Assembly: GCA_937950405.1 (NCBI GenBank)
Contig: CALFDH010000061.1
Location: 1 to 39,492, forward strand
Direction: 5' to 3'
Length of the DNA: 39,492 bases
Source: an uncultured Meiothermus sp.
Lineage (GTDB): Bacteria; Deinococcota; Deinococci; Deinococcales; Thermaceae
The position numbers and the translations under genes were made by a program. The notes under the pieces are model-generated. The model was not told the DNA's origin, did no database searches, and was given only the letters and a program-made list of their open reading frames with translations. Of this stretch, positions 30,204-32,835 are shown piece after piece; the first letter of the stretch is position 1, and every line of letters starts with the position of its first letter.

Positions 30204-30923
30204 CTAATTCTGTAGCTCCTTGTAGACTGCATAGACCCGTCCCCCTTTAGGGTAGGCCTCGAGGCTGTACAGCACGGCATGGTTGGGCAGGACGGTCTTG
30301 GTACGCTGGGGCAGGCCGGTCTCAAACGCGACCACCAAGGGGTCATCCCGGCGAAAGCCGGTGCCCCGGCTCACCCGGTCCAATAGGCGGGGGTGCTTGG
30401 CGCTGAAATAGACCCGCAGGGGTTTGCTGCCTGCCATCAGCACAATTGAGGGGGTAGAGCCGCGCTCGGCCAGCGCGATAATTGCCACCTCCTCCGAGAC
30501 CTGGTGCAACTCGGCCAGCTCGGGCACCAGCCGGGGGCTCTGGCCCTTTTTGGTCAGGGCTGCGTCCACCACCTCGCCGGGCAGCAGCATCTCGGCAGCC
30601 CCCAGGTTGCAAAGGGCCTCGAGCTCTCTTTCCAGTTCCTGTCCCACGTAGGCTTCGTGCAGGTCGGAGAGCAGGTCGTCGTCCTGCTGGATCAGCATGT
30701 GCATCACCTCGTGAGCCAGGGTAAAGCGCTGACGTTTAGGAGGGGAGTCCTGGTCGATCAGAATATGGTTCTGCTCCGGCACCAGGGCCCCAAACTTGCC
30801 CTCCGGCAGCTTGCCATAGGAGAGACTCGCGCCAATGCCTCCGGCCAGCCGTTCGGGGGTGAGGGGGGCGTGGGCCTTGCGGTAGCCCTGTGCCAGTTCG
30901 ATTATTTTGGGTCTCAGGTTCAT
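30204..30923 (-). CDS. irrE: IrrE/ImmA family metallopeptidase, likely DdrO-cleaving IrrE
   Basis: A 239-residue zinc peptidase. The zinc motif is HEVMH (71-75) in FTLAHEVMHMLIQ; the third ligand is probably in ELEALCNLGAAEMLLPGEVV (101-120), matching the ImmA pattern. The C-terminal 100 residues (STPSIVLMAGSKPLRVYFSA onward) fit the GAF-like sensor part of Deinococcus IrrE/PprI. In Deinococcus, IrrE cleaves the repressor DdrO after DNA damage, switching on repair genes. A ddrO gene lies 0.7 kb upstream on the same strand, supporting this identity over a toxin-linked ImmA. No strong ribosome site; the gene starts 22 bases after the GyrI-like stop, so co-transcription is likely. Confidence 0.85.
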   Translation of the reverse strand: MNLRPKIIELAQGYRKAHAPLTPERLAGGIGASLSYGKLPEGKFGALVPEQNHILIDQDSPPKRQRFTLAHEVMHMLIQQDDDLLSDLHEAYVGQELERELEALCNLGAAEMLLPGEVVDAALTKKGQSPRLVPELAELHQVSEEVAIIALAERGSTPSIVLMAGSKPLRVYFSAKHPRLLDRVSRGTGFRRDDPLVVAFETGLPQRTKTVLPNHAVLYSLEAYPKGGRVYAVYKELQN

Positions 30924-31597: not shown

Positions 31598-31990
31598 CTA
31601 ACCTTCCAGCACCCGCTTGAGGTGCAGGAAGATCTCGTACCAGTCGCGCTTGGACTCCGGGCGCTTGCCGCGCAGCTCGATGCGGGCCAGGGTGCGCTGC
31701 CACTCCGGGGTGATTTCGGCCCCCAGGGTGGGGTCGGCTATCAGCTCGGCCAGACCTTTGGGCAGCGAGGCTTCGGTGCGCTCACCGTAGAAGTCTACAG
31801 GGGCCAGTAGGTCGTTGACCGTCACGTTGTAGGAGCCGGCCAGAGTTTGCAGGGTGTCGAGAGAGGGGTTGGTGCGGCCCCGCTCGAGGTCGGACAGATA
31901 GGGGACGGAAAGCCCACTCTTCTCGGACAAATCCTTCAGGCGCCAGCCTTGCTGGCTGCGTAGTTCGCGGAGACGCTCGGCTAGTGTCAT
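31598..31990 (-). CDS. ddrO: DdrO, XRE-family repressor of the radiation/desiccation response
   Basis: A 130-residue protein close to Deinococcus DdrO in length and along its whole sequence. The HTH domain reads [20 protein letters not shown] then [20 protein letters not shown]. The C-terminal dimerisation part reads [46 protein letters not shown]. IrrE cuts Deinococcus DdrO between Leu106 and Arg107; here those residues are also Leu106-Arg107 (RIEL/RGKR). It represses genes carrying the RDRM operator. The ATG at 31990 lies 7 bases after a TACCGT -10 box, so the mRNA is probably leaderless. An imperfect 17-bp palindrome overlaps its -35 box, suggesting autoregulation. Confidence 0.93.
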
Positions 31991-31997
31991 GGTTCTG

Positions 31998-32033
31998 ACG
32001 GTAGCATAAAATCTTTCTACGGTCAAGACGTAA
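31998..32033 (-). promoter_or_regulatory. ddrO promoter with imperfect RDRM-like operator
   Basis: On the minus strand TTGACC (32026-32021), a 17-base spacer and TACCGT (32003-31998) end 7 bases before the ddrO ATG. The -35 box lies in TTACGTCTTGACCGTAG (32033-32017), a 17-base imperfect inverted repeat resembling RDRM but with an 8-base core (GTCTTGAC) instead of 9. DdrO binding here is inferred. Confidence 0.6.
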
Positions 32034-32049: not shown

Positions 32050-32084
32050 TTGCGTTATGCAGATAGATTATGCTAGTATCATAA
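32050..32084 (+). promoter_or_regulatory. RDRM-like operator in the promoter of the small gene at 32099
   Basis: TTATGCTAGTATCATAA (32068-32084) has perfect 5-bp outer arms at the RDRM spacing (TTATG-N7-CATAA). It covers a -10 candidate, TAGTAT (32074-32079), 18 bases after TTGCGT (32050-32055). The ribosome site GGGAGG follows at 32086-32091. The inner GTC/GAC bases of the Deinococcus consensus are not kept, so strength of binding is uncertain. Confidence 0.65.
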
Positions 32085-32098
32085 TGGGAGGCAAGCAC

Positions 32099-32407
32099 AT
32101 GAACGTCAACGAAAACGTTTGGAGAACCATTGGGCGCGGAACCGTACATCCGAGTGAAGTGCTGAATACCCTCATCGAACTTGACAATCGCAAGGGCCAG
32201 ATTGGTTTATGGGCCCTGGAAAATGAATTGCGCGAGAAAATGCCCCTGCTTCGCCCGCTGGCCCAGCCGCTGGCGCAGGCCTGGCTCGAGGCCACCATCC
32301 AGTACCGCGCCACCTACTACCCCGAAACCCACCTGACCCGGCTCTGGAACCGACTGGCGGGGGCCGATGCCCAAAGCAAAGCCAGAACCCTGCCCATGGC
32401 CAGTTAG
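32099..32407 (+). CDS. Hypothetical protein, candidate new DdrO-regulon member
   Basis: A 102-residue protein, [20 protein letters not shown] at the start, then a helical body ([51 protein letters not shown]). I recognise no family. There is no signal peptide, Cys cluster or obvious catalytic motif. The ATG at 32099 has a clear ribosome site 7 bases upstream. An RDRM-like palindrome lies in its promoter, and it is divergent from ddrO with about 110 bases between starts. The context suggests induction after DNA damage or drying. Confidence 0.75.
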
Positions 32408-32565
32408 TTCCCCCGCCGGCCCCAAGCTTAAAGCGCATTAGGGGCAGGAGGCGGTTATGTTCTCAACATTTTTTTTGGGAAGTAGAGGCCCGGGATCGAC
32501 ACCAACGCCTGCTCGAGGACACCGTGGGGACTGGCCCCACCATTCCAACTGTACAGGAGGCCCGC

Positions 32566-32835
32566 ATGATGCAACTCGCTCAGCAAGTTCAGGTTTCGGC
32601 GGTGGAAAATATTCGTCCAGTGTCTGCTTATGTGTTTGTCTCGTGCGCCCAACCCAAGCGCATCGTGCACGCTCTGAGCCGCCTGCCAGGGGTGGTCAAG
32701 GCCGATGCCCTGCTGGGGGCCTCCGAGGCGGTCCTGGTGGTGGAGCGGCACAACTTTGAAGCGCTGCAAACCCTCTTGACCGAAGTGCAGTCCACCCCCG
32801 GAGTCAAGAAAGTTTCAGTAAAGTTAGCAGCATGA
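32566..32835 (+). CDS. Lrp/AsnC-type ligand-binding domain protein
   Basis: An 89-residue stand-alone RAM/ACT-like domain, the ligand-binding half of Lrp/AsnC regulators without a DNA-binding domain: PVSAYVFVSCAQPKRIVHAL, LPGVVKADALLGASEAVLVV, ALQTLLTEVQSTPGVKKVSV. Such proteins bind amino acids or modulate partners. The ATG at 32566 follows AGGAGG. A second AGGAGG with ATG 32457 lies upstream but one frame off; a T8 run at 32469-32476 separates the frames, and with seven T the protein would gain 36 residues. Its stop overlaps ATG 32832 of the next gene by 4 bases. Confidence 0.82.
   Translation: MMQLAQQVQVSAVENIRPVSAYVFVSCAQPKRIVHALSRLPGVVKADALLGASEAVLVVERHNFEALQTLLTEVQSTPGVKKVSVKLAA

Follow-up and report, generated by a model that had tools for sequence, protein, structure and literature searches.

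We analysed a 39,492-nucleotide stretch of DNA (the window), which is one contig (CALFDH010000061.1) of the 2.89-Mb draft genome GCA_937950405.1 of an uncultured Meiothermus sp., whose closest relatives are Meiothermus. It carries a small gene for a 102-residue protein, transcribed divergently from the gene for the repressor DdrO. We conclude that this gene is very probably the Meiothermus orthologue of ddrQ and a member of the IrrE/DdrO radiation/desiccation response (RDR) regulon, an assignment that concerns its identity and regulation. An initial annotation, made from the letters alone, had singled out positions 32050-32407, which span the promoter, the operator and the gene. The features on which the assignment depends, including sites that resemble the radiation/desiccation response motif (RDRM), are as follows.

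32099-32407, + strand: proposed ddrQ orthologue, 102 residues plus stop codon; open reading frame, orthologues, purifying selection, divergent from ddrO
32050-32079, + strand: inferred promoter; -35-like TTGCGT (32050-32055), 18 nt, extended -10 TGc plus TAGTAT (32071-32079)
32068-32084, unstranded: predicted RDRM/DdrO operator TTATGCTAGTATCATAA of the 102-residue gene, over the extended -10; 17.1 bits
32086-32091, + strand: Shine-Dalgarno sequence GGGAGG, 7 nt 5' of the ATG at 32099
31598-31990, - strand: ddrO, XRE-family repressor of 130 residues; PDB 6rnx and 6jq1, E ~1e-61, 73% identity over 128 residues
32017-32033, unstranded: second RDRM, CTACGGTCAAGACGTAA, over the ddrO -35 (TTGACC, - strand); 13.2 bits
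31993-32009, unstranded: third site, RDRM-like, TTCTGACGGTAGCATAA, covering the presumed -10 of ddrO; 10.6 bits
165-181, unstranded: RDRM TTATGTCAAAAACATAA, upstream of gyrA (start 78, - strand); 24.5 bits, the top score in the window

The 102-residue frame codes for a protein, since its comparison with seven orthologues gives dN/dS values of 0.08-0.22 and differences that fall mostly at third codon positions, the signature of purifying selection. The open frame continues upstream as far as 32033, and we place the start at 32099 because the upstream part overlaps the promoter and the operator. Two in-frame ATGs, at 32033 and 32057, were considered as starts and rejected on the same ground; the protein is not conserved there outside Meiothermus. 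The promoter is conserved in the orthologue alignment, with a weak -35-like element that matches at 3 of 6 positions and was not picked by a consensus scan. The strong ribosome-binding site proposed earlier is confirmed by GGGAGG 7 nt before the ATG, and the orthologues carry AGGAGG-like counterparts.

The initial annotation was also right about the divergent neighbour. At 73% identity to the solved Deinococcus DdrO proteins, its product is by sequence a true DdrO, and it keeps the L106-R107 bond, within IELRGKRP, at which IrrE cleaves DdrO (PMC8072749).

To score operators, we derived a symmetric matrix, independent of Meiothermus data, from 34 RDRM sites published for D. radiodurans (PMC8533742) and scanned the window and a null set of 60 windows simulated with a second-order Markov model. 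The palindrome TTATGCTAGTATCATAA exceeds chance. It ranks second in the window, behind the gyrA-upstream site, and its 17.1 bits lie above the maximum of 15.5 bits in the simulated windows, in which 0.15 sites of at least 14 bits are expected per window; the published D. radiodurans sites have a leave-one-out median of 16.9 bits. The palindrome covers TAGTAT, the likely -10 box, as first described, and stands above all simulations. The sites CTACGGTCAAGACGTAA and TTCTGACGGTAGCATAA rank fifth and seventh. The former is kept in nearly all ddrO loci examined and is the counterpart of the published D. radiodurans ddrO site TTCTGTATTGACCGTAG (PMC8533742, Table 2), with which it shares the stretch TTGACCGTAG; the latter is kept in most Meiothermus. 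The gyrA-upstream TTATGTCAAAAACATAA is a near-ideal RDRM, letter-for-letter the same as the published D. radiodurans ddrC site. As gyrA is a known DdrO target, this site serves as an internal positive control for the regulon.

Conservation was examined at two depths. In Meiothermus and other Thermaceae contigs we found seven orthologues, all divergent from ddrO and with the operator at about -31; their identities are 62-88% (Meiothermus and one Thermaceae metagenome-assembled genome). In M. rufus both half-sites of the operator are altered together (TTCTG...CAGAA), a two-sided compensatory change that argues strongly for selection acting on the palindrome. We then surveyed 111 Deinococcota genomes, 35 with DdrO and 76 without, which are related to one another, so that the counts are not independent. 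The small protein is encoded in 32 of the 35 DdrO-bearing genomes and in every one of these 32 its gene is divergent from ddrO, while the 76 genomes without DdrO gave nothing beyond marginal matches. Among the genomes searched the gene occurs in four Deinococcota families, which does not support the earlier suggestion of a lineage-specific gene. The initial annotation had looked to the palindrome in orthologues as its touchstone: of the orthologues examined (Thermaceae and families f2, f3 and f4), all are preceded by an RDRM-like site, which is degenerate in two of them. Together with the true DdrO next door, this conservation supports the membership in the DdrO regulon that had been proposed.

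Some apparent occurrences were set aside. Weak matches arose in G102, G076 and Thermus-like g4 genomes; the one in G102 disappeared with a broader profile, and the others were short or marginal and came from genomes without DdrO. The ddrO loci on Deinococcus plasmids hold no family member, and two divergent members used as queries matched nothing on the plasmids.

The arrangement matches a gene already described. In D. deserti, Deide_20580 encodes an 83-residue protein of unknown function, adjacent and divergent to ddrO, and was named ddrQ in 2017 as an RDR regulon gene without a known domain (PMC5552922). It is induced more than tenfold by radiation in an IrrE-dependent manner, placing it among the most strongly induced genes and proteins, and DdrO binds the ddrO-ddrQ intergenic region, a divergent promoter induced by radiation that was tested by electrophoretic mobility shift assay (PMC5552922). 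Among seven Deinococcus species, ddrQ with an RDRM is present in six and missing from D. radiodurans (PMC5552922), and sequence similarity of DdrQ within the genus is 51-78%. A bridge between the two groups is provided by the genome G001. Its DdrO shares 89-91% identity with the D. deserti and D. geothermalis proteins, and its gene divergent from ddrO encodes an 85-residue family member, which shares 45% identity over 76 positions with the protein of the window. We infer orthology with Deinococcus ddrQ, with strong support from position, operator, size and this bridging homologue. The regulatory switch is real and conserved; the gene is already known as ddrQ and is no new discovery, so that the earlier proposal of a candidate new gene does not hold.

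Several observations weigh against this assignment. The comparison with Deinococcus ddrQ was made only through its published description and the bridging homologue of G001. The operators of G001 (TTTAGCTATAATCATAA) and G008 are degenerate. Three of the 35 DdrO-bearing genomes (G003, G024 and G028) have ddrO and lack the small gene, and D. radiodurans, which also lacks it, has a working damage response (PMC5552922). In G028 the operator is retained, and a gene for an AsnC-type domain now follows it directly. The function proposed for DdrQ, finally, is only putative, and the predicted fold has no match among known structures.

What the protein does can be approached through its sequence and predicted structure. 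The initial annotation recognised no family in it, and searches of Pfam, NCBIfam, PHROGs and, by sequence and profile, PDB returned no significant match. An AlphaFold2 model, following the structure prediction suggested there, is all-helical, with four helices and a mean pLDDT (predicted local distance difference test) score of 82, and has no significant Foldseek match in PDB or BFVD. The isoelectric point is 9.3, and no membrane segment was found, the best 19-residue hydropathy window reaching 0.49. The strongest conserved stretches of the family, one ending in ...LE and the other AWLEA..Y, look like helix-packing or interaction surfaces and not like a catalytic site. The product is thus predicted to be small, cytosolic, all-helical and slightly basic, without recognisable catalytic residues. 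Its loss in several DdrO-bearing genomes speaks against an indispensable part in the switch. Of the possible roles we favour, at about even odds, that of a protein-binding accessory factor in the damage response; that of an enzyme or of a component central to the switch seems less likely to us.

Other explanations differ in how they treat the protein and the palindrome. DdrQ could be a division inhibitor that delays division during DNA repair, like SosA, YneA, DivS and ChiZ, whose genes adjoin lexA; the arrangement, the repressor operator and the small size are those of the lexA neighbours, whose products inhibit division in several Gram-positive bacteria (PMC6851548). We consider this unlikely for a protein that is predicted to be soluble and helical and whose hydropathy maximum of 0.49 leaves it without a membrane segment. 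It could alternatively be a feedback modulator that binds DdrO or IrrE and tunes or resets repression after damage. The gene accompanies ddrO almost without exception, always in divergent orientation, and is absent where DdrO is absent. This fits such a role, but shared regulation explains the linkage equally well, and ddrO persists without the gene in G028, G024, G003 and D. radiodurans, the last with a functional response (PMC5552922), which makes a modulator of this kind rather improbable.

The palindrome might, on the other hand, serve only the autoregulation of ddrO, leaving the small gene outside DdrO control. One intergenic region holds several RDRM-like sites, and in divergent gene pairs of D. 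radiodurans it is common for just one partner to respond (PMC8533742). Yet two other sites, at distances of about 50 and 75 bp, belong to ddrO itself, TTATGCTAGTATCATAA lies on the -10 of the small gene at a constant distance from its ATG, and ddrQ itself is radiation-induced in D. deserti; we hold this explanation to be highly improbable. More speculatively, DdrQ may be an ancient IrrE/DdrO partner that predates the split between Deinococcus and the Meiothermus/Oceanithermus-like lineages, acting directly on the response as a checkpoint or feedback protein of a new, soluble kind whose helical fold is undescribed, and working in Thermaceae with the presumably cotranscribed AsnC-type domain protein; we rate this composite picture as unlikely. 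The reading that we prefer remains that of a ddrQ orthologue under DdrO control.

Beyond ddrO and the small gene, the following neighbouring genes were identified.

30204-30923, - strand: IrrE-like M78 zinc metallopeptidase, 239 residues, HEVMH motif; PDB 8slm (E 4.3e-35) and 3dte (E 1.3e-32); PF06114
30946-31446, - strand: protein with a Cass2/GyrI-like small-molecule-binding domain, between ddrO and irrE; PF14526, PF06445
32457-32835, + strand: AsnC-type ligand-binding-domain gene; PF01037 (E 2.1e-7), open part 32566-32835, frameshifted

The IrrE-like peptidase is presumed to cleave DdrO. Close homologues of IrrE and DdrO have been reported as present in Meiothermus and absent from Thermus (PMC8072749). 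The Cass2/GyrI-like gene lies between ddrO and irrE in many Thermaceae and was not found there in family f4. The AsnC-type gene has its true start at the ATG at 32457, 49 nt past the stop of the small gene (the gap is about 21 nt in the related loci L006 and L007). In the alignment, a T-run near 32468-32475 has eight Ts in the window and seven in relatives, which shifts the frame; the extra T may be an assembly error or a true mutation. A terminator was sought between the two genes and not found, and in Meiothermus the small gene probably heads an operon with the AsnC-type domain gene. The AsnC-type gene of the sister genus g3 has an RDRM of its own, TTATGTTTCTAGCATAA (L032:1325-1341) or TTCTGTTAACGACATAA (L035:1870-1886), which supports its inclusion in the DdrO regulon and points to a further regulon member outside Deinococcus.

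These parts suggest a mechanism. In undamaged cells, DdrO dimers on the RDRM over the -10 would block RNA polymerase at the small gene; through the neighbouring RDRMs, which cover the ddrO promoter, DdrO would repress its own gene. When DNA is damaged or oxidative stress occurs, DdrO would be cut at L106-R107 by the IrrE-like peptidase of the same cluster, repression would be lifted and the small gene transcribed, in Meiothermus probably together with the AsnC-type domain gene. Repression by DdrO and its relief by IrrE are established for Deinococcus, and the conserved parts argue for the same in Meiothermus. Our data directly support the gene, its operator, its conservation, its linkage to DdrO and the presence of repair genes under the same motif.

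In related Meiothermus genomes, exact RDRM-like palindromes precede gyrA, cinA, ruvB, uvrB, recX, a Y-family polymerase gene and dnaE; a site upstream of gyrA also occurs in G031 and G027. For gyrA, cinA, ruvB and uvrB, control by DdrO is known from Deinococcus. In the genome of the window itself, TTATGTTCACTGCGTAA lies about 20 nt ahead of the ruvB start and a weaker site, TTCTGTTCATACAAGAA, about 30 nt ahead of that of uvrB; the start of cinA lies beyond a contig end. This distribution indicates that Meiothermus has a DdrO regulon that includes repair genes and strongly resembles that of Deinococcus. Counts of the exact pattern exceed those of a reversed control in most, not all, genomes, and single matches elsewhere therefore need care.

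Further RDRM-like sites were noted at other loci. In Meiothermus genomes, such sites before recX, the gene for a Y-family DNA polymerase and an HU/IHF-like gene (L075:1218-1234; L087:1243-1259; L089:1239-1255) make these possible regulon members. The very strong palindrome TTATGTTTATAACATAA (L014:1542-1558; G000:C62:25141-25157; 25.6 bits) lies between the genes for a 236-residue XRE-type regulator and a small hydrophobic protein. Another, TTCTGTTTAGAGCAGAA (L016:1559-1575; G000:C4:32558-32574; 19.5 bits), lies about 250 nt upstream of what appears by eye to be a ribonucleotide reductase gene, with a second, weaker site between the two.

Our analysis extends the range of ddrQ, beside ddrO, from Deinococcus to Thermaceae and other families, four Deinococcota families being represented, and adds a predicted all-helical fold and, in Meiothermus, a probable AsnC-type operon partner. 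That ddrQ is kept next to ddrO across four families suggests a general role in the damage response, and orthologues from thermophiles are now available for work on the structure and function of DdrQ.

Three known systems frame these results. Like ddrQ of D. deserti and five other Deinococcus species, the Meiothermus gene is small, adjacent and divergent to ddrO, has an RDRM in its promoter and encodes no known domain; in contrast, its product has 102 residues against 83, and it is apparently the first gene of an operon that continues with an AsnC-type domain gene. The lexA-adjacent genes sosA, yneA, divS and chiZ are likewise small genes beside a damage-response repressor that controls them, but the repressor and the proteins are unrelated, and the latter commonly have the membrane segment that DdrQ lacks. 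With the Deinococcus IrrE/DdrO regulon, Meiothermus shares the repressor (73% identity), the 17-bp operator and the targets gyrA, cinA, ruvB and uvrB. The Deinococcus regulon is known by experiment, whereas for Meiothermus the only report that we found is that homologues of IrrE and DdrO are present (PMC8072749).
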